DNA of 64,000 nucleotides from Yoonia sp. (GTDB lineage: Bacteria > Pseudomonadota > Alphaproteobacteria > Rhodobacterales > Rhodobacteraceae). The notes beneath the pieces were generated by a model, which was given only the letters and a program-made list of their open reading frames with translations, made no database searches and had not been told where the DNA came from. The stretch is taken from positions 1 through 64,000 of the forward strand of contig JAQXEG010000034.1 of assembly GCA_029250945.1 (NCBI GenBank), in the 5' to 3' direction. Below are positions 1,607 to 30,722 of the stretch, in pieces. Position numbers and translations under genes: made by a program. Positions within the stretch are counted from its first letter, which is position 1. The number at the start of each line of letters is the position of its first letter.

Positions 1607-3808
1607 ATGACAGCACAGGTTCTAAGGTTCGAGATTGACGGCATGTCCTGCGCATCTTGCGTGGGACGGGTTGAGCGCCTGTTGGGTGAGGTGGATGGTG
1701 TTGTGTCCGCGCATGTGAACCTTGCGACAAAGACGGCGGATGTCGCTGTGTCAGGTGGCGGCGTGGCAGCGGATGGTTTGGCAACGCTCGCGACGCAGGC
1801 TGGCTATCCCGCCACACTGATGACCACCCCGACAGATCGGGCGGATAAGGCTGCCGCTGCAATCCGCAACATCCGCCGTAAATTCTGGATCGCGACCATC
1901 CTGACCATTCCCGTGACAGCGTTGGCGATGGGGGGACATATCTTTCCTGCCCTGCGCGACTTTGCCGACGGTGCAACTGGCTGGACAATTCAGTTCGTTC
2001 TGACAACGCTCGTGTTGCTCTGGCCGGGCGCAGATTTTTATCGCAAGGGGATTCCAGGCCTGTTCCGTGGGGCGCTCGATATGAACACGCTGGTTGCCAT
2101 CGGCACGTTTGCCGCGTGGCTGTTTTCCACGATCGCATTATTCATACCGCAGGTTCTGCCGCCCGCCGCTGTGGGCGTTTATTTTGAGGCCGCTGCCGTC
2201 ATCGTCACCCTGATCCTGCTGGGCCGCTACATGGAAGAACGCGCCAAGGGCCGGACAGGTGACGCGGTGCGCAAGCTGATCGGACTACGCCCCAAGACGG
2301 CGATTGTGATGCGTGACGGGCAAGATGTGTCGCTGCCGATTGGTCAGATCGTCGTTGGCGACCAGATCATCGTGAAACCGGGCGGTCAGTTTGCCGTCGA
2401 CGGTGTGGTGCAATCAGGCAGCTCCGCTGTGGATGAGGCGATGCTGACGGGTGAGCCGCTGCCAGTGGCCAAGGCAAAAGGCGCACAAGTGTCCGCTGGC
2501 ACAATCAACGGAAACGGGGCCTTGGTGATTGCAGCGACCCATGTGGGTGCTGATACTGCGCTCGCGCAGATCATCCAGATGGTACAGGACGCCCAAGGTG
2601 CGCGGCTGCCGATCCAGGACCTTGTGAACCGTGTCACAGGGCTGTTTGCGCCTGTGGTATTGTTGCTTGCGGTGCTGACTGTGTTGGTCTGGCTGGTGTT
2701 GGGCCCCGATCCGGCGCTGGGCCTCGCGCTTGTGGCGGGGGTGTCGGTTCTGATCGTGGCGTGCCCTTGCGCGATGGGGCTGGCGACGCCGATGTCCATC
2801 ATGGTCGGCACGGGGCGCGCAGCAGAGCAGGGGATTTTGTTTCGCGGTGGTGATGCGTTGCAAAATCTGCAAGCGGTTGATGCCATCGCATTCGATAAGA
2901 CCGGCACCCTGACCGAAGGCCGCCCGACGTTAACGGGGCTGCAAACCGCCGATGGATTTGATGCGGACACAGTCCTCACCCTTGCTGCCAGCCTAGAGGC
3001 GCAGTCAGAACACCCCATCGCACAGGCTGTTGTCATGGCGGCGGCGGATAAAGGCATAGACCCTCTCGCTGTATCCGACTTTGCAGCCGTCACGGGCATG
3101 GGGATCACGGGGCAGGTTGGCGGGCAATCGGTGCGGATTGGTGCGGAACGGTTTATGCCAGAGGGGGCCGCGCTGACGCTGGATGCGGCATTTGATGCAG
3201 GCGGTCGGTCGGTGTTCTACATTGCCATTGATGGCGTTCTTGCGGGCGCGCTCGCAGTAAGCGATCCGGTGCGAGCCGATGCTGCTGGTATGGTGTCAGC
3301 CTTGAAATCCATGGGGTTGCGCGTTGCACTGATCACTGGCGACACACAATCGGCGGCGGATGCGCTGGCCGAAAAGGTTGGGATCAATGATGTTGTTGCG
3401 GGCGTTCTACCTGCGGGGAAATCCGACGCGCTGGGTCGGTTGGCGGCGGGGGGCAAGGTTGCCTTTGTCGGGGACGGGATCAATGACGCGCCAGCGCTTG
3501 CCAAAGCTGACGTGGGGATCGCCATTGGCACGGGCACAGATGTGGCGATTGAGGCGGCGGATGTCGTGTTGATGGCGCATGACCTGATGGCGGTCACACG
3601 TGCCGTGCAAATCAGCCGCGCGACCCTGCGCAATATCAAACAAAACCTGTTTTGGGCGTTCGCCTATAACGCGGCGCTGATCCCTGTTGCCGCCGGTCTT
3701 TTACATCCGGTGTGGGGCGTTTTGCTGTCGCCGATGCTCGCCGCTGGTGCCATGGCGCTGTCGAGCGTTTTTGTCGTGACCAACGCGCTGCGCTTACGGC
3801 GGGCATGA
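1607..3808 (+). CDS. copA: Heavy-metal (copper) translocating P1B-type ATPase
   Basis: Inner-membrane copper-exporting ATPase, 733 aa. One N-terminal heavy-metal-associated domain carries GMSCASC. Next come four membrane helices, the actuator TGE loop (MLTGEPLPV), the CPC metal site in CPCAMGLATP, the phosphorylation site DKTGTLTEG, the SEHP motif and the hinge GDGINDAPALA. The CPC motif and HMA Cys pair point to Cu(I). I chose ATG 1607, which follows AAAGGGGC, rather than the TTG at 1589 used in the ORF track. No copper regulator or chaperone gene is adjacent. Only one metal-binding domain is present, where many homologues have two. Confidence 0.94.
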   Translation: MTAQVLRFEIDGMSCASCVGRVERLLGEVDGVVSAHVNLATKTADVAVSGGGVAADGLATLATQAGYPATLMTTPTDRADKAAAAIRNIRRKFWIATILTIPVTALAMGGHIFPALRDFADGATGWTIQFVLTTLVLLWPGADFYRKGIPGLFRGALDMNTLVAIGTFAAWLFSTIALFIPQVLPPAAVGVYFEAAAVIVTLILLGRYMEERAKGRTGDAVRKLIGLRPKTAIVMRDGQDVSLPIGQIVVGDQIIVKPGGQFAVDGVVQSGSSAVDEAMLTGEPLPVAKAKGAQVSAGTINGNGALVIAATHVGADTALAQIIQMVQDAQGARLPIQDLVNRVTGLFAPVVLLLAVLTVLVWLVLGPDPALGLALVAGVSVLIVACPCAMGLATPMSIMVGTGRAAEQGILFRGGDALQNLQAVDAIAFDKTGTLTEGRPTLTGLQTADGFDADTVLTLAASLEAQSEHPIAQAVVMAAADKGIDPLAVSDFAAVTGMGITGQVGGQSVRIGAERFMPEGAALTLDAAFDAGGRSVFYIAIDGVLAGALAVSDPVRADAAGMVSALKSMGLRVALITGDTQSAADALAEKVGINDVVAGVLPAGKSDALGRLAAGGKVAFVGDGINDAPALAKADVGIAIGTGTDVAIEAADVVLMAHDLMAVTRAVQISRATLRNIKQNLFWAFAYNAALIPVAAGLLHPVWGVLLSPMLAAGAMALSSVFVVTNALRLRRA

Positions 3809-3924
3809 ACCCGTTGATATTGAGCGACAAACCGCGTGATATCGCTTAACAACTGGCCGTTGTGCAGATTGATACCTATCTGTCAGGGTAACAAACGACC
3901 CTGCGCAACGAAGGTAGAGGATTT

Positions 3925-4530
3925 ATGATGAAACGACGTTCCTTTATGGCATTTGCCACCGCCGCGATTGTGGCTGGATCACCAGCAGCCGCGCAGCAGC
4001 TATCGCTGGAGCAAGTGTCGCAGTATTTGAACCAGCTTCAGACCGCGCAAGGCGGGTTCACCCAGATCAATGCGGATAGCACATTGTCGACTGGCCAGAT
4101 CTATATCAAACGTCCTGGCCGCATCCGGTTCGAATATAACGCGCCTGATAATTCGCTGGTGATGGCAGGCGGCGGGTCCGTCGCGATCTTTGATCCGCGG
4201 TCCAACAACGGGCCGGATCGTTATCCGCTGAACCAGACACCGCTAAAGATTATTCTGGAACGCAATGTCGATCTGGGGCGGGCGCGGATGGTCACGGGCC
4301 ACACGTCCGACGGGGCCACCACAACGATCACCGTCCAAGACCCCGACAACCCGCAATACGGCAACATCCAGATGGTATTCACCGGAAGTCCGGTTGAACT
4401 GCGCCAATGGATTGTCACCGATGATGTGGGCAGCCAGACAACTGTGATCCTGAACGACATGACCGCTGGCACGCGGATCAGCGATAATAAGTTCAGCATC
4501 GTCAGCGAGATCAACAAGCGCGAAAACTAA
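3925..4530 (+). CDS. lolA: Outer-membrane lipoprotein carrier protein LolA-like
   Basis: Periplasmic chaperone that moves lipoproteins from the LolCDE complex to the outer membrane. 201 aa with an N-terminal leader MMKRRSFMAFATAAIVAG ending near an AAAQQ cleavage site; the leader contains RRSF, so Tat rather than Sec export is possible. The mature part has the LolA pattern: a Q-rich start (QTAQGGFTQ), GQIYIKRPGRIRFEY, and a later RQWIVTDD strand. The start may be 3925 or 3928, both after GAGG. A strong bidirectional terminator follows, between this gene and the convergent lipoprotein gene. Confidence 0.85.
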   Translation: MMKRRSFMAFATAAIVAGSPAAAQQLSLEQVSQYLNQLQTAQGGFTQINADSTLSTGQIYIKRPGRIRFEYNAPDNSLVMAGGGSVAIFDPRSNNGPDRYPLNQTPLKIILERNVDLGRARMVTGHTSDGATTTITVQDPDNPQYGNIQMVFTGSPVELRQWIVTDDVGSQTTVILNDMTAGTRISDNKFSIVSEINKREN

Positions 4531-4544
4531 ACCGCGTAGAATTG

Positions 4545-4574
4545 AAAAAGGCGCCCGATTGAGGCGCCTTTTTT
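4545..4574. terminator. Bidirectional intrinsic terminator
   Basis: AAAAAGGCGCC, a 7-nt loop, then GGCGCCTTTTTT. The GC stem is flanked by A- and T-runs, so it can end both lolA (plus) and the convergent gene at 4579-5163 (minus). Confidence 0.85.
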
Positions 4575-4578
4575 GTGT

Positions 4579-5163
4579 CTAGATTTTGCGGCAACCGCGC
4601 AGCTGCGTGTCATACATGACGGCGCGTGCGTCGACTTCTCCTGCGATGCGGGCGAGCCAGCTTTTGCGTTTCCACGTGCCGCGCACAAAACCGGTGCGCC
4701 CGTCGTGATAGGCAAGGTATTGATCGCGGGTGTTGGACATGGAAATCCCGATTTCATCCTTGGTCTGATTCATATACCAGCCCATGAAATCGGAGGCGTC
4801 GCGGATATTGTCGCGCCGCGCGCCGCGGCCACCTTCACGCTGTTGGTATTCGCGCCATGTCGCATCTAGGGCTTGGGAATAGCCGAATGCGGATGACTGG
4901 CGGCCAACCGGGATCACGCCCAGCGCATATTGATGCGGGGTGCGGTTGTTGCCGATAAATTTGCTTTCTTGATAGATAATGGCCATTAGCACGGGAACAG
5001 GAACGCCCCATTTGCGTTCGGTCGCTTTGAAAGCACGTAAATATGCCGGGCGCTCGGATACGATTGAACAGGCGTTATCAAGGTTGCGCGGCGCCGAGAA
5101 ATTCTTGGACCCGCAGCTTCCTAAAGCCACTAAAAGTATCATCGCGCGAAAGATTTTGCTCAT
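4579..5163 (-). CDS. Lipoprotein with lytic transglycosylase (SLT)-like domain
   Basis: 194 aa. The signal peptide ends in a lipobox (VALGSCGS), so the protein is probably a lipoprotein. The rest resembles the goose-lysozyme/SLT fold: a candidate catalytic Glu in MAIIYQESKF, then SSAFGYSQALDATW and a late YLAYHDGRTGF motif. The likely role is cleavage of peptidoglycan glycan strands in the periplasm. It is convergent with lolA and ends at the shared terminator. Only 83 bp separate its start from the stop of the upstream minus-strand transporter gene, so the two could be co-transcribed. Confidence 0.8.
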   Translation of the reverse strand: MSKIFRAMILLVALGSCGSKNFSAPRNLDNACSIVSERPAYLRAFKATERKWGVPVPVLMAIIYQESKFIGNNRTPHQYALGVIPVGRQSSAFGYSQALDATWREYQQREGGRGARRDNIRDASDFMGWYMNQTKDEIGISMSNTRDQYLAYHDGRTGFVRGTWKRKSWLARIAGEVDARAVMYDTQLRGCRKI

Positions 5164-5246
5164 CTGCCTCTCGCTTATATTATTATTATGTTTTTTTGCA
5201 ATCTTAGCGGAAAACCCGTCCGCTGTGAACCGTTTTGCAGCGCAGA

Positions 5247-6128
5247 TTAGATCACAAACGCGAGGATGAGCGGTAAACTGATCACCGACAAAAGCGTGGA
5301 GGCAACGACAAGGCCCGCAACAGGCTGTGCCTCATGCCCGTATTTTTCGGCCAACAGGTAGGATGTGACGGCCACAGGTGTCGCGACTTGCATGATCAGA
5401 ACGGCGCTGGGCACAGGGGCAAGGCCAAATGCTTGTGCGGCAATCCAAGCGGACCCTGCGCAGATCACGATCTTTAGGGCCGACAGCCACACGGCCCGCC
5501 CTATATCGCGGGTTTCCAGCCGCGCGATGGCGACGCCAAGTGTGATCAACATCATGGGAATCGCCATTTGTCCGATCAGGTCCAGCGCGTTGGTCAGGAA
5601 GGCTGGTGTCTGCCATCCGCGCCACAAAAACAGCGCGCCGAGGAATGTTGCCGCAACGACAGGTTCGCGCACAACCCGCGTCAGCGACCCGCCGCCAGAC
5701 ACAATCCACACACCGATTGTGAACGATAAAATGGCCATCACAGCAAAAACGACGATGGCGTAGCTTAGCCCCGCCTCACCAAATGCGAACAACGCTAGCG
5801 GCAGGCCTAGGTTGCCGGTATTGCCAAAAACGAGGGGTGCCAAATAGGTTGAGATATCCAACCGCATCAATTTTGCGACGATGAAAAACCCTATCGTCAC
5901 AAGGGCATAAGCCGCAAAACTGGCAAGCGTGAGCGCGCCCAGCGCCTCTGGCGTCAGGTTGGCGTTCATCAGGACCACAAAGATCAGGCACGGCACGGAA
6001 AGTGTCATGGCCAGTCGGGTGACAAACTCAACCCGGTATTCAAAGCCCAGTTTGACCCAGCAAAACCCGACGGCGGCAAGAATGAAGGCAGGCGCGGTGA
6101 TGTTCAGGGCTGTTAGTGCAAGGTTCAC
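5247..6128 (-). CDS. AEC family transporter (auxin efflux carrier/malate permease type)
   Basis: 293 aa inner-membrane protein with about ten hydrophobic segments in the two five-helix halves of the AEC family. Characteristic features are the N-terminal PAFILAAVGFCWVKLG, the FGNTGNLGLPLALFAFG helix and a C-terminal QVATPVAVTSYLLAEKYG segment. Family members export organic anions or small acids; the substrate cannot be deduced. It diverges from hspQ. The ATG at 6128 is the first in frame and gives the expected N-terminus. Confidence 0.88.
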   Translation of the reverse strand: MNLALTALNITAPAFILAAVGFCWVKLGFEYRVEFVTRLAMTLSVPCLIFVVLMNANLTPEALGALTLASFAAYALVTIGFFIVAKLMRLDISTYLAPLVFGNTGNLGLPLALFAFGEAGLSYAIVVFAVMAILSFTIGVWIVSGGGSLTRVVREPVVAATFLGALFLWRGWQTPAFLTNALDLIGQMAIPMMLITLGVAIARLETRDIGRAVWLSALKIVICAGSAWIAAQAFGLAPVPSAVLIMQVATPVAVTSYLLAEKYGHEAQPVAGLVVASTLLSVISLPLILAFVI

Positions 6129-25588: not shown

Positions 25589-26995
25589 ATGTCCCCCAAA
25601 ACACTCTATGATAAAATCTGGGATGCCCACGTCGCCCATGAGGCCGACGATGGCACCTGCCTGCTGTATATAGACCGCCATCTGGTCCACGAGGTAACAT
25701 CCCCGCAAGCATTCGAAGGTCTGCGTATGTCTGGTCGCACTGTGCGCGCACCGGAAAAGACGATCGCGGTGCCGGATCACAACGTTCCCACCACGCTGGA
25801 TCGCGCCAACGCATCCACAATGACCGAAGATAGCCGTATTCAGGTTGAGGCGTTGGATAGAAATGCCAAGGAATTTGGTCTGCACTATTACCCTGTGTCT
25901 GACGTTCGTCAGGGCGTTGTGCATATCGTCGGTCCTGAACAGGGTTGGACATTGCCCGGCATGACCGTGGTTTGCGGCGACAGCCACACGGCGACGCACG
26001 GTGCATTCGGCTCGCTTGCCCACGGTATCGGCACGTCCGAGGTAGAACACGTTCTGGCGACGCAAACGCTGATCCAGAAGAAATCCAAGAACATGAAGGT
26101 TGAGATCACAGGCGAACTTGCCCCTGGTGTGACGGCCAAGGATATCACGATGGCCGTGATCGGCCAGACCGGCACCGCTGGTGGTACTGGTTACGTCATC
26201 GAATACTGTGGTTCCGCGATTGAAAGCTTGTCCATGGAAGGGCGCATGACCGTCTGCAACATGGCCATTGAGGGCGGCGCACGCGCTGGCCTGATCGCCC
26301 CTGACCAGACAACATATGACTACTGCATGGGCCGCCCGCACGCACCAAAGGGTGCGGAGTGGGAAGCCGCGCTGACCTATTGGAAGACACTGTTCACCGA
26401 TGAGGGCGCGCATTTCGACAAGGTCCTGACTATCCGCGGTGAAGATATTGCACCGCTGGTGACTTGGGGCACTTCGCCTGAGGACGTGCTGCCAATCACC
26501 GATGTTGTGCCAAACCCGTCCTCGTTCGAGGGTGGTAAGGTTGGTGCTGCTGAACGGTCTATCGAATATATGGGTCTGACAGCGGGTCAAAAGCTGGCTG
26601 ACATCGAGATCGACACGGTGTTTATCGGGTCCTGCACCAACGGCCGGATCGAAGATTTCCGCGCTGCTGCTGCGATCCTGAAGGGCAAAAAGATCAAGGA
26701 CGGGATGCGTGCGATGGTCGTGCCAGGGTCCGGTCTGGTCCGCGCGCAAGCCGAGGAAGAGGGCATCGCCCAAATCTTCAAGGATGCCGGTTTCGAATGG
26801 CGCCTTGCGGGTTGTTCCATGTGTCTGGCTATGAACCCCGACCAGCTAAAGCCGGGTGAGCGTTGTGCCGCGACATCCAACCGTAACTTTGAGGGCCGTC
26901 AGGGGCGGGGCGGACGCACCCATCTGATGTCACCTGCGATGGCGGCTGCTGCTGCGATCACGGGCCGGCTGACCGACGTGCGGGACCTGATGTAA
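25589..26995 (+). CDS. leuC: 3-isopropylmalate dehydratase large subunit
   Basis: 468 aa. Forms the [4Fe-4S] isopropylmalate isomerase with LeuD in leucine synthesis. Seen: the substrate-loop [14 protein letters not shown], the cluster ligands in [13 protein letters not shown] and [12 protein letters not shown], and the [24 protein letters not shown] end. ATG 25589 has a near-perfect AAGGAGGG ribosome-binding site; the track start at 25478 is too early. Its TAA overlaps the next start (TAATG), so the three small genes before leuD belong to the same operon. Confidence 0.97.
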
Positions 26996-27480
26996 TGACG
27001 ATGCGGTGGCGTGGATTTCTGGGGATGTTGGGGGCTGCGGTTGCGTCGCCTGCAATCCCTATGGCCGCGCCTTCGGCGGGGTTTTCGCGGGCAAGCTATG
27101 GTCTGGCCATGGCGCACGCCCGCAAATACCCGCTGGTCAGCGTGCGTGGGTTGGTCAACCGTCTGGGGCTATCCGCGCCAGAGGCAAAGGCCATCATCAC
27201 GCGCATGTCGTCGGACGGTGTGTTGGGGGGCATCGCGCCCACACGTCCCGGTACGATCTTTGCCTCGAGCAAGGTCTATACCGGCAACATGGTCAAAACA
27301 GCATCAACTGCCGCCAAGGCCAAACAGGTGACGGCGACGCAGCCCAAGCCTGTCGTCAAGGATATCCGCATCCCGCAGATCAAGCCGACTAAAAGGTTGG
27401 CTTATGATGTAAACCTATCCGTGATGATGGCGCATCTGCGCGATCTTTGCGCGGCGCGGAACATCGGGGTGGTTGCATGA
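26995..27480 (+). CDS. Tandem paralogue 1 of 3: leader plus winged-helix-like domain, unknown family
   Basis: 161 aa, function unknown. The N-terminus MRWRGFLGMLGAAVASPAIP resembles a Tat-type leader but has R-W-R in place of twin Arg. The core ASYGLAMAHARKYPLVSVRG and LVNRLGLSAPEAKAIITRMS reads like a MarR-type winged helix (one helix turn helix then an SSDGVLG wing). A Lys/Pro-rich linker and a conserved tail VMMAHLRDLCAARN follow. It overlaps the leuC stop by one base and the next gene by four (ATGA). Paralogues 2 and 3 share the layout, so this is a tandem family. An ATG at 27001 is an alternative start. Confidence 0.75.
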   Translation: MTMRWRGFLGMLGAAVASPAIPMAAPSAGFSRASYGLAMAHARKYPLVSVRGLVNRLGLSAPEAKAIITRMSSDGVLGGIAPTRPGTIFASSKVYTGNMVKTASTAAKAKQVTATQPKPVVKDIRIPQIKPTKRLAYDVNLSVMMAHLRDLCAARNIGVVA

Positions 27481-27941
27481 AACGGCGTAGCTTCCTTGGA
27501 CTTTTTAGTGCTGCGGTTGTTGCACCGGCCTTGCCGGTCGCGGCCCCTGCTGCGGTGACCTATAGCCGATCGTCATACGGACTGGCCGTGCTGCATGAGC
27601 GGACCCGTCCGCATGTGTCAGCACGCGGGTTGGCGCATTGTCTGAAACTGCCCAAATCGCAAGCAAGCACGATGATGGCGGAAATGACGCGCAACAACCT
27701 GATCACACCGATCAAGAGGGCTGTTGATGGGTCCATGCGGGCCACAAGCAATATCTTGATCAGCGATCCGTGGGGGCTGCAGAAAGCTGCGGCTGCCCGC
27801 AAAGTTGCCAGCGATAATGCCAAGCGTGAGGTCAAATCAGACCCTGCGCGGACACGCGGGAATATCGACCTGATGCTGGCCCATTTGCACGATCTGTGCG
27901 TGGGCCAAGGCATGACGCTAAGCCCGCGGTGCTTTGCATGA
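27477..27941 (+). CDS. Tandem paralogue 2 of 3: Tat-like leader plus winged-helix-like domain, unknown family
   Basis: 154 aa. The leader MKRRSFLGLFSAAVVAPALP has twin Arg, a hydrophobic stretch and a likely AxA cleavage site (VAAPAA), which predicts Tat export. The core YSRSSYGLAVLHERTRPHVS, ARGLAHCLKLPKSQASTMMA and NNLITP aligns with paralogues 1 and 3. The tail LMLAHLHDLCVGQGMTLSP ends with a Cys near the terminus (PRCFA). The start overlaps the previous stop by four bases (ATGA). I do not recognise the family; a DNA-binding-like fold on an exported protein is the odd point. Confidence 0.78.
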   Translation: MKRRSFLGLFSAAVVAPALPVAAPAAVTYSRSSYGLAVLHERTRPHVSARGLAHCLKLPKSQASTMMAEMTRNNLITPIKRAVDGSMRATSNILISDPWGLQKAAAARKVASDNAKREVKSDPARTRGNIDLMLAHLHDLCVGQGMTLSPRCFA

Positions 27942-27955
27942 CAAAGGGGACGACC

Positions 27956-28414
27956 ATGAAACGACGCAATTTCCTTGGGTTGATCGGGGCGGCTTTTGCA
28001 GCCCCGTTGATGCCATTGCCACAGATGGGTCAGGCAGCGGGTGCGGCCTATAGCCGGTCGGCGATGCAATGGGCGATCATGCACGCACAAGCACGCGTAT
28101 CATTCAGTGTTTGGGGGTTGGCCAAAACACTGGGCCTGTCCATGCCGCAGGCCGAGGCGCTGATGGGCGACATGGCCAAACGCGGGATCGTCGGGCCATT
28201 GCAGGGCACAACGCACGGCGGGCGCTGGGCCAGCAGCAAGATCATGCAAAAGGAAATGCTTGGCGCGGTTGAGGCCGCGAAACGCCGCCACACGTCATCA
28301 CATCAGACACAGTACAAAACATATGCCGAACCCGATCTGGGCCGGCTGATTGCACATTTGCGCGGGCTTTGCGTTGCTCAGGGCATGACCCTTAGCCCCG
28401 CCTGCGCGGCATAA
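27956..28414 (+). CDS. Tandem paralogue 3 of 3: Tat-like leader plus winged-helix-like domain, unknown family
   Basis: 152 aa. Leader [20 protein letters not shown] with cleavage possible near GQAAGAA. Core [40 protein letters not shown] and KRGIVGPL; tail [23 protein letters not shown] 27956 follows AAAGGGGAC; a TGACA-type overlapping ATG at 27938 would add six residues. It is 19 bases before leuD. The C-terminal HLxxLC-x-x-QGMTLSP-x-C pattern is almost identical to paralogue 2, so copies 2 and 3 are closer to each other than to copy 1. Confidence 0.78.
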
Positions 28415-28433: not shown

Positions 28434-29039
28434 ATGGAAAAATTCACTACACTTAGCGGGATCGCGGCGCCAATGCCTTTGGTCAATATCGACACCGATA
28501 TGATCATCCCCAAGCAGTTTTTGAAAACGATCAAGCGCTCTGGTCTGGGCGTGAACCTGTTTGACGAGATGCGCTATAATCTGGACGGGTCCGAGATTTC
28601 TGATTTTGTGCTGAACCAGCCTGCTTACCGCGAAGCGTCTGTTTTGGTCGCTGGCGATAACTTTGGCTGCGGATCATCACGCGAACACGCCCCATGGGCG
28701 ATTGCGGATTTCGGTATCCGCTGCGTGGTATCCACCAGCTTTGCGGACATCTTTTACAATAACTGTTTCAAGAACGGCATCCTGCCGATTGTCCTGCCTG
28801 AGGATCAGCGCGACGCCTTGATGAAGGACGCCGAAAAGGGAGCGAACGCCCGGATTGAGGTCGACCTCGAGGCGCAGACAATCACCAGCTCTGATGGTGA
28901 GACATTCAGCTTTGAACTGGACGCGTTCAAAAAACATTGCCTGCTGAACGGTCTCGACGACATTGGCCTGACCATGGAAAAGGCCGCCGCGATTGACACG
29001 TTCGAGGCCGAAGTGTCCACCAGCCGCCCTTGGGTCTAA
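28434..29039 (+). CDS. leuD: 3-isopropylmalate dehydratase small subunit
   Basis: 201 aa, the swivel-domain partner of LeuC. Typical motifs are [16 protein letters not shown], the [16 protein letters not shown] loop, and [26 protein letters not shown] precedes the ATG. It is separated from leuC by 1.4 kb filled by three small paralogous genes, an unusual arrangement for two subunits of one enzyme. Confidence 0.97.
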
Positions 29040-29383: not shown

Positions 29384-29680
29384 GTGTTTACACGACTGCC
29401 AGTTGTGACGCGCTTGAACCGTGACAGCCAAATTAACCTTATCTTAGGATTTCTGCTGCCCTTCTTGGTGCCGGCGTTATTGAAAATCATCGCGCTGACG
29501 ATTGCGCTGTTTTCGCTAAGTGATCCGCATAGGTTGATTTGGGCCGTATCCGCATGGGCATTCCTTCCTGCAAGTCTGTTGATGCGCGGCGGCGCGTTGA
29601 ACCGCGTGGCGTAGATGATTTACGTCAAACGCAAGCGGGCCTATGCCAAGGCGGCTGCAGATGGGCTGTTGCCAGTCTAA
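29384..29680 (+). pseudogene. Small membrane protein with in-frame TAG before its last 21 codons
   Basis: From GTG 29384 the frame reads MFTRLPVVTRLNRDSQINL, then two hydrophobic helices to LMRGGALNRVA, where a TAG lies at 29612-29614. The very next codons in frame are MIYVKRKRAYAKAAADGLLP up to a TAA at 29680. That tail is basic, amphipathic and of coding character. I infer one protein of about 97 aa split by a GAG- or CAG-to-TAG type change. Alternatively the short second ORF is a separate small gene. Function unknown. Confidence 0.5.
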
Positions 29681-30722
29681 TTGCCTATTTCGGATCGGCG
29701 GTCGACGCAGAGAAATTTGGCATCGCGACCTACGCTGCCCCGCTTAGCCGGGATGGTCCGGGCCTTCTTCTGCGGAATATTTTGCGTGGTGAGGACCCGC
29801 AGATCACAGCCGTGCAAGGCATCATCGGGGCGGTAGATCCCGATGTGATTGTCCTGACCGATTTTGACTATGACCTCGACGGTATGGCGTTGGCTGCATT
29901 TGTGGAACTGACCGGATACCCGTTTCAATTCGCCGCGCTCCCAAATGCGGGAATGCCGACCGGCCTGGACATTGATGGCAACAAACGACTAGGCGAGGCC
30001 CGCGATGCCCAAGGGTATGGGCGGTTCAGTGGGGATGGCGGCATGGCCATCTTGTCAAAAATGCGGATTCAGACCGACGCGGTCGTGGATCTGTCAGCGA
30101 CGCTCTGGCGCGATGTCGATGGTGCGATCCTGCCATCGGTGGATGGTACGCCATTCCCAAGCGAAGCGGCGCAAGCGGTCCAGCGCATATCCTCCGCTAG
30201 TCATTGGATACTACCCATCGTGCCACAAGACACGCCGCCTTTTTCCCTGCTCGCATGGTCCGCGACGCCGCCTGTTTTCGATGGGCTGGAGGATCGCAAC
30301 GGCTTGCGCAAGCGTGATGAGCTGCGGATGTGGGCAAACCTGTTGGACACTGATCCCCCGTCGTCATTTGTGATCGCGGGGAATGCGAACCTTGATCCGG
30401 TTGATGGGGGCGGTTTGCGCGATGCGATGGCTACGTTCCTTGCGCGCGACGACGTGATCGATCCGTAGCCCAAAAGCACAGGGGGACGACTGCCGCTGAC
30501 CTCGACCACAGGGGGAATCCGGTGCTTGATACCGCCGACTGGCCCGATGACCGCCGCCCCGGCAATTTGCGGGTAAGTTATGTGCTGCCAAGCCGTGACT
30601 GGACGGTTATTGATGCTGGCGTCTATTGGCCAGCACCCGATAGTGCGGCTGCGGCCATTATGGGACCTGACGGATTGGCAGCGGGGCCGCATCGCCTCGT
30701 CTGGGTTGATATCGTCCGATAG
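29662..30722 (+). pseudogene. Endonuclease/exonuclease/phosphatase family protein, disrupted by TAG and a one-base deletion
   Basis: Secreted EEP-fold hydrolase-like protein. The frame starts without a clear initiation codon in a signal-peptide-like stretch (ASLIAYFGSAVDA). It contains GIATYAAPLSRDGPGLLLRN, VIVLTDFDYDLD, GYGRFSGDGGMAILS and FVIAGNANLDPVDG. A TAG at 30466-30468 interrupts it, and four codons later a run of five G (30481-30485) shifts the frame. With six G the frame continues TTAADLDHRGNPVLDTADWP and NLRVSYVLPSRDW to the TAG at 30722, the normal C-terminus of the family. Two independent lesions argue for a genuine pseudogene. Confidence 0.8.

Follow-up and report, generated by a model that had tools for sequence, protein, structure and literature searches.

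A tandem trio of small winged-helix proteins with Tat-type leaders between leuC and leuD in Yoonia sp.

Three small genes lie between leuC and leuD, which encode the two subunits of isopropylmalate isomerase, in a stretch of Yoonia sp. DNA (GCA_029250945.1, contig JAQXEG010000034.1, positions 1-64,000, forward strand) that we refer to at its full length of 64,000 nucleotides (nt) as the window. An initial annotation had described their products as combining a leader of the twin-arginine translocation (Tat) type with a DNA-binding-like fold, and the locus raises the question of what such proteins do and why they are found in the leucine operon of a marine bacterium. We observed that the pairing is real and is conserved as a trait of a whole family, in which 50 of 51 members have an RRx[FL] motif within the first 14 residues. 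The explanation that we favor, at about even confidence, is that the three are Tat-exported binding proteins, that the leuCD gap is their inherited host site, and that they take from the leu operon expression only.

The open reading frames (ORFs) of 161, 154 and 152 amino acids (aa) were confirmed at the positions initially given for them. The genes and their parts are as follows.

25589..26995, plus strand: leuC, isopropylmalate isomerase large subunit (ORF; tblastn against relatives, mostly 85-95% identical)
26995..27480, plus strand: copy 1 (type alpha), 161 aa, with leader R-W-R-G-F-L in which the twin Arg is broken, winged helix and shortened one-Cys tail (ORF; orthologues in G036, G032, G372 and G415)
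26995..27075, plus strand: copy 1 leader (family alignment)
27088..27276, plus strand: copy 1 winged-helix core (29-member alignment A3; profile match to FtsK gamma)
27477..27941, plus strand: copy 2 (type beta), 154 aa (ORF; homology searches; ratio of nonsynonymous to synonymous substitution rates, dN/dS)
27477..27554, plus strand: copy 2 Tat leader, MKRRSFLGLFSAAVVAPALPVAAPAA (leader motif and profile comparison)
27567..27749, plus strand: copy 2 winged helix, comprising helix 1, strand, helix 2, helix 3 and wing (AlphaFold2; Foldseek matches to MarR and eS25)
27882..27938, plus strand: copy 2 C-terminal tail, HLHDLCVGQGMTLSPRCFA, with Cys pair (alignment; Cys co-occurrence)
27956..28414, plus strand: copy 3 (type gamma), 152 aa, with the type-gamma wing motif (ORF; homology searches; dN/dS)
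27956..28039, plus strand: copy 3 Tat leader, 28 residues (leader motif and profile comparison)
28055..28237, plus strand: copy 3 winged-helix core (AlphaFold2 helices; Foldseek)
28355..28411, plus strand: copy 3 tail, 19 residues (alignment)
28434..29039, plus strand: leuD, isopropylmalate isomerase small subunit (ORF; own Shine-Dalgarno-like AAAAGGA)

The genes had been described as coupled by short overlaps. This is the case for leuC and copy 1, where the leuC stop (26995) and the next start share 1 nt (TAATG), and for copies 1 and 2, which overlap by 4 nt (ATGA), but not for copies 2 and 3, which are separated by a 14 nt spacer with a Shine-Dalgarno-like AAAGGGGA. Another 19 nt separate copy 3 from the leuD ATG at 28434.

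Leader, fold and tail of the gap proteins

Searching the whole genome with copy 3 returned copy 2 at E=2.9e-24 (38%) and copy 1 at E=1.6e-14 (39%), bearing out the proposal that the three genes are paralogues. The family had also been called unrecognised; indeed, none of the three copies scores above the cut-off of any Pfam or NCBIfam model, and our literature searches, mostly outside subscription journals, found no description of it. Each copy has separate orthologues in other genomes, which we assigned to types alpha (copy 1), beta (copy 2) and gamma (copy 3). The order is alpha-beta-gamma in the window and beta-alpha-gamma in G032 and G372, while G036 has alpha-gamma only and G020 gamma alone. 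We calculated dN/dS between orthologues by the Nei-Gojobori method, using only pairs with unsaturated dS. Values within types were 0.13-0.41 overall, indicating purifying selection: 0.29-0.41 for copy 1 against its own orthologues, 0.24-0.26 for copy 2, and 0.13 for copy 3 against G036. The wing motif of type gamma is strongly conserved. Together with homologues in at least 12 genera, purifying selection indicates that the trio is more than a product of chance.

The Tat-like leaders first noted in the three copies, including the R-W-R of copy 1, were found as described. Copies 2 and 3 are among the 50 members with RRx[FL], and the sole member of the 51 without it is copy 1 of the window, which reads W-R-G-F-L; here the twin pair has lost its first Arg, whereas the closest orthologue, found in G036, retains R-R-N-F-L. 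The Pfam model TAT_signal (PF10518) matched 12 of 29 members and TIGR01409 three of 29, at E up to 0.1, and none of the window copies reached E=1 against either model. The family leader profile aligned with the Tat peptide of CueO in PDB entry 9e04 (E=0.011), and the host genome encodes TatC. The near-universal motif, the TAT_signal matches, the CueO alignment and the host TatC together argue for Tat export.

The C-terminal tail had been singled out for its HLxxLC motif, and we found this motif in gap members of all three types, with (L)SPxC about 10 residues beyond it, or with variants of the two. Tails are variable and have been lost in several members, and that of copy 1 lacks the second Cys. 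Out of 25 gap members, 14 had both Cys residues, six had neither and five had one only, so that the two tend to be present or absent together (Fisher p=0.01, uncorrected for relatedness). This co-occurrence fits an oxidising compartment, and it is a fair guess that the tail may form a disulfide there.

To describe the core, copy 2 was modelled with AlphaFold2 without its leader and copy 3 with it, from input alignments of seven sequences, and the core of copy 1 was assigned by alignment. Mature copy 2 was predicted to fold as helix, short strand, helix, helix and wing, with a mean predicted local distance difference test score (pLDDT) of 64.9 and core values of about 76-88 over most of the stretch and 66 at the wing end. 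Copy 3 gave three helices at pLDDT of about 72-82, an unresolved wing and a mean of 58.5. With the copy 2 model as query, Foldseek returned MarR proteins (OhrR and others) and ribosomal protein eS25 at probability 1.0, with a best E of 8e-4.

Sequence searches of Pfam, NCBIfam and PDB with single copies gave sub-threshold matches only, mostly to winged helix-turn-helix proteins (copy 2 against PF12802, E=0.013 and 16 bits against a cut-off of 27; copy 3 against PF09397, FtsK gamma, 15.1 bits against 30.6). By sequence profile the nearest relative of the core was the FtsK gamma domain, at E=1.2e-4 to 2j5o/2ve8, with an hhalign probability of 95.9 (P=5.7e-9) for family against domain; nine of 29 members weakly matched PF09397. 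When the family profile was run over 121 genomes, 115 gave a match at E<=0.001; most of the listed non-member matches covered profile positions 34-86 or so and fell in one ORF per genome, about 900-1,200 aa long; 12 of these were inspected, and all were FtsK C-termini. The similarity may reflect descent or merely the closest winged helix, and we do not claim descent. Thus the MarR-like core of the initial annotation stands as a fold, while by sequence profile FtsK gamma is nearer.

Closeness to FtsK gamma in Pfam, in PDB profiles and in the host genomes would suit proteins that mimic this domain to modulate FtsK/XerCD chromosome processing. In Escherichia coli FtsK, residues N1296, R1300 and E1303 read the FtsK-orienting polar sequences (KOPS; PMC2533119), and the XerD contact surface is carried by the nine-residue peptide RQFRIGYNR (PMC5052618). 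Neither feature is conserved in the family: the columns equivalent to N, R and E hold mostly A/P/T/D, A/G and G/A/N, a basic residue occupies the R1300-equivalent position in 0 of 26 members, and the XerD peptide has no conserved counterpart. Mimicry of FtsK/XerD was rejected on these contact residues, and since an export leader would also take the proteins away from the chromosome, we consider such modulators extremely improbable. On its contact face, helix 3 likewise has few basic and many acidic residues (4 and 21, respectively, in the 58 cells of positions 64 and 67). This, together with the loss of the KOPS residues, makes classical DNA reading by helix 3 unlikely; binding of protein, or of nucleic acid without sequence specificity, is conceivable.

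Export weighed against a cytosolic role

We propose that the trio represents the branch that was duplicated in tandem in the leuCD gap, within a family of small proteins restricted to Rhodobacteraceae. A member of this family consists of a leader of the Tat type, a winged helix that is basic and related in profile to FtsK gamma, and a variable tail. The proteins would be translated with LeuCD, fold in the cytosol, and be exported in folded form by the Tat pathway, to act as non-enzymatic binding proteins, either in the periplasm or on the outer side of the inner membrane. Together with leuCD, the gap branch is passed on by descent, lost and probably exchanged, and co-transcription would provide expression, with no leucine role implied. 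Of these elements, the family, its leader motif, the fold, the purifying selection and the history of its location are shown by the data, while export, envelope location and binding are inferred.

Several observations weigh against this proposal. The net charge of the core is 0 to +7 in 28 of 29 members, which fits cytosolic DNA binding as well. Copy 1 lacks the twin Arg, so that one of the three may not be exported. The profile searches included the leader, so that leaderless members could be missed. Finally, the last gap member reads in frame, with no stop, into LeuD in four genomes: a Sulfitobacter metagenome-assembled genome (L106:5599-6603), Planktotalea arctica (L121:5629-6603), G452 (L293, 3384-4412) and G526 (L295, 2521-3564). 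Each of these keeps the leuD ATG and an upstream AGGAG, AAGGA or similar, and either two products or a fusion of Tat leader, winged helix and LeuD is possible. A full-length fusion, if made, would put a Tat leader on the cytosolic enzyme LeuD and would be a natural test of the leader.

The lost twin Arg of copy 1 and the run-on into LeuD also speak for the main rival explanation, that these are cytosolic MarR-like winged-helix regulators of the leu operon or of branched-chain genes, whose leader is an uncleaved, non-functional N-terminus. The MarR-type fold found by Foldseek, the basic core and the position, which implies co-transcription with leuCD, are in keeping with it too. However, RRx[FL] has been retained throughout nearly the whole family while the remainder of the protein diverges, and the face with which a recognition helix would contact DNA is often acidic. 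The trio is also missing from close relatives that retain leuCD, and the wider family is unlinked to leu genes. We therefore regard cytosolic regulation as unlikely on balance.

The leuC-leuD gap and the spread of the family

We surveyed the leuC-leuD gap in the host genus, where it was readable in 56 of 57 genomes. The gap was 2 or 5 bp long in 30 genomes and an 86-89 bp spacer in five; it held an unrelated small lipoprotein-like ORF in six and other or no ORFs in five. Intact family members were present in eight and truncated remnants in two (G026, with a 179 bp gap, and G370, with 165 bp), and the other 46 had leuCD without either. G358 and G025, in which LeuD is 90% identical, yet have a clean 2-bp junction. 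The conserved 86-89 bp spacer, found in five species (G006, G017, G002, G009 and G019), has an apparent GC-rich hairpin (GCGGCGCGCTCATCA...TGATGAGCAGCCCGAAAGGA). In G023 (L203) the lipoprotein-like ORF starts with 12 residues that match the start of LeuD, as though the beginning of leuD had been copied when the ORF was inserted.

A second sample, obtained with leuD as query, comprised 76 leuC-leuD gaps of named Rhodobacteraceae genomes. Forty were of 150 bp or less and 36 exceeded 250 bp; the family occurred in four only. The remaining contents we take, by reading, to be genes of the DUF308/HdeD type (DUF, domain of unknown function), glycosyltransferases, methyltransferases, DUF429, patatin-like and major facilitator superfamily genes, and others. 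Empty in some genomes and filled with varied unrelated genes in others, the leuC-leuD gap is a permissive slot. Downstream of leuD, the window has an endonuclease/exonuclease/phosphatase-like ORF (29539-30468) before leuB, and relatives of this ORF (about 42-61% identical) follow leuD in most genomes examined.

Using family profiles made from 12 gap members (A1) and from 29 diverse members (A3), we found relatives only in Rhodobacteraceae, and across 190 genomes drawn from the whole class, no genome but the window's own gave a match at E<=1e-9. Member counts are lower bounds and family-level absences uncertain, as some of the genome searches scored 9-33 candidates per genome. Outside the gap, members occur either alone or as tandem copies (five in G181), next to unrelated housekeeping genes, which by our reading are presumably rpsO/pnp, a ribosomal-protein operon, argG, hisG, rnhB, msrA and others; no conserved neighbor shared by them was found, and their tails are mostly acidic. 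The window's own genome has one distant paralogue (L024, G000:C11:22193-22657), away from leu genes and with its RRSFL leader intact. The five tandem members of G181 (L094, contig C12, about 3093-5634, minus strand) are flanked by what appear to be TldD-type and DprA/TopA genes, and one of them continues in frame into an extra domain, possibly an acetyltransferase. Another member (L096, G207:C29, 3577-4197) lies within a ribosomal-protein operon, presumably between rplP and rplN.

In a tree of 51 members, all 33 gap members fell on one side together with two from outside the gap (o_L089 and o_L091a), and the label "gap" needed two changes on this tree, against a mean of 15 when labels were shuffled. 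Types alpha, beta and gamma formed a supported group of 27 rows (98/100), in which many genera are represented and every row is a gap member. Counted by group code, at least 12 genera have members confirmed to lie between leuC and leuD (G000, G092, G132, G142, G157, G184, G195, G206/G513, G415, G452, G487 and G526). The tree suggests that the clade captured the gap about once; most simply, the three types would have arisen there by tandem duplication, as a group of gap members alone from so many genera implies, before those genera parted or the cassette spread. In the leuCD tree, G372 and G020 (both of the same genus) fall among other genera, and G032 falls beside the cassette-free G358 and G025, whereas the gap proteins of G372, G020 and G032 group together. 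Although some branches of the leuCD tree are weak, this discordance suggests that gap contents have been exchanged by recombination in the flanks.

Location in the leucine operon had been taken to hint at a link to LeuCD or to branched-chain control. The location holds for the clade, which is almost confined to the gap; the wider family, by contrast, is scattered away from leuCD. With patchy presence, remnants, a permissive gap, a family beside unrelated genes, and species with 90%-identical LeuD that lack the trio, a role in LeuCD function or branched-chain control is not supported by the comparison of genomes, and leuCD is most likely the inherited host site of the trio. Near-exclusive residence in the gap would be expected of functional partners of LeuCD, such as chaperones for its [4Fe-4S] cluster or for subunit assembly. 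But most readable genomes of the genus manage leuCD with neither member nor remnant, the gap takes many unrelated genes, paralogues are scattered, and the leader is one for export; we find such partners very improbable.

A translational role at the leuD junction has a precedent in CutF of Rhodobacter capsulatus, which has a Sec signal, a Cu motif and a Pro-rich motif for stalling, together with a stem-loop in its mRNA (PMC9973294). In a device of this kind, co-translational export of the small protein would sense the outside and control leuD translation, and the short spacing, overlapping starts and conserved C-terminal ends near the stop codon are in keeping with it. However, no stem-loop that would mask the leuD ribosome site was found: folding of the window junction is worse than that of its shuffles (z=+1.36), and no structure is consistent across five genomes. 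There was no Rfam match either. Tat export is normally post-translational, and the tails vary and are lost in several members. We regard this explanation as quite improbable.

Patchy presence, one to five tandem copies, remnants, and scattered sites beside housekeeping genes could also mark selfish or neutral passengers that multiply in gaps of conserved operons and have no host function. Against this, three types have been kept across genera under purifying selection wherever it was measurable, and the wing of type gamma has a strongly conserved motif. We saw no link to a transposase, recombinase or phage; phage and plasmid records held no relative of copy 3, and viral contigs none of copies 2 and 3. 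Passenger genes are decidedly unlikely as an explanation.

Implications and comparison with known systems

Since the leuC-leuD junction is a gene slot, functional linkage is not to be read from position there, and in Rhodobacteraceae a place between two subunits of one enzyme is no sign of it. What emerges is a family missing from the libraries searched and its odd pairing of leader and fold. Should the leader be functional, the family would be one whose nucleic-acid-binding fold is exported folded through Tat, and our literature searches, with the coverage given above, found no other; the range of winged-helix roles and of Tat cargo would be wider than supposed. We suggest, tentatively and with less than even confidence, that a chromosome-reading fold was moved to the envelope, where its new binding partner could, for example, be nucleic acid outside the cell or a protein of the envelope, and that it expanded by tandem duplication in a permissive operon slot.

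The family shares features with several known systems and differs from each. Like CutF, the trio would be small proteins with an export signal (here a predicted one) encoded directly upstream of another operon gene, but the stem-loop of CutF mRNA has no counterpart at the leuD junction. The MarR regulators (PF01047, PF12802) share the winged-helix fold, at the Foldseek probability given above; they differ in that the sequence match is sub-threshold (best E 0.0046-0.022), and the family has an export leader and a recognition helix without the usual basic residues. Ribosomal protein eS25 (PF03297) shares the winged-helix core at the same Foldseek probability, with a whole-chain profile E of 0.0015, but it is an archaeal and eukaryotic ribosomal protein and the likeness is one of fold only. 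Known Tat substrates are mostly enzymes or cofactor carriers. With substrates recognized by the TAT_signal models the family has in common an N-terminal RRxFL and an uncharged Ala-rich stretch, while it differs from them in being a small winged helix in which no cofactor site was seen. The closest likeness in profile is to FtsK gamma (PF09397; PDB 2j5o, 2ve8, 2j5p), with which the family shares a winged helix of about 55 residues, the helix spacing and a GVV turn after helix 3; FtsK gamma, however, is the C-terminal domain of a translocase, whereas the family consists of stand-alone small ORFs that begin with a Tat leader.

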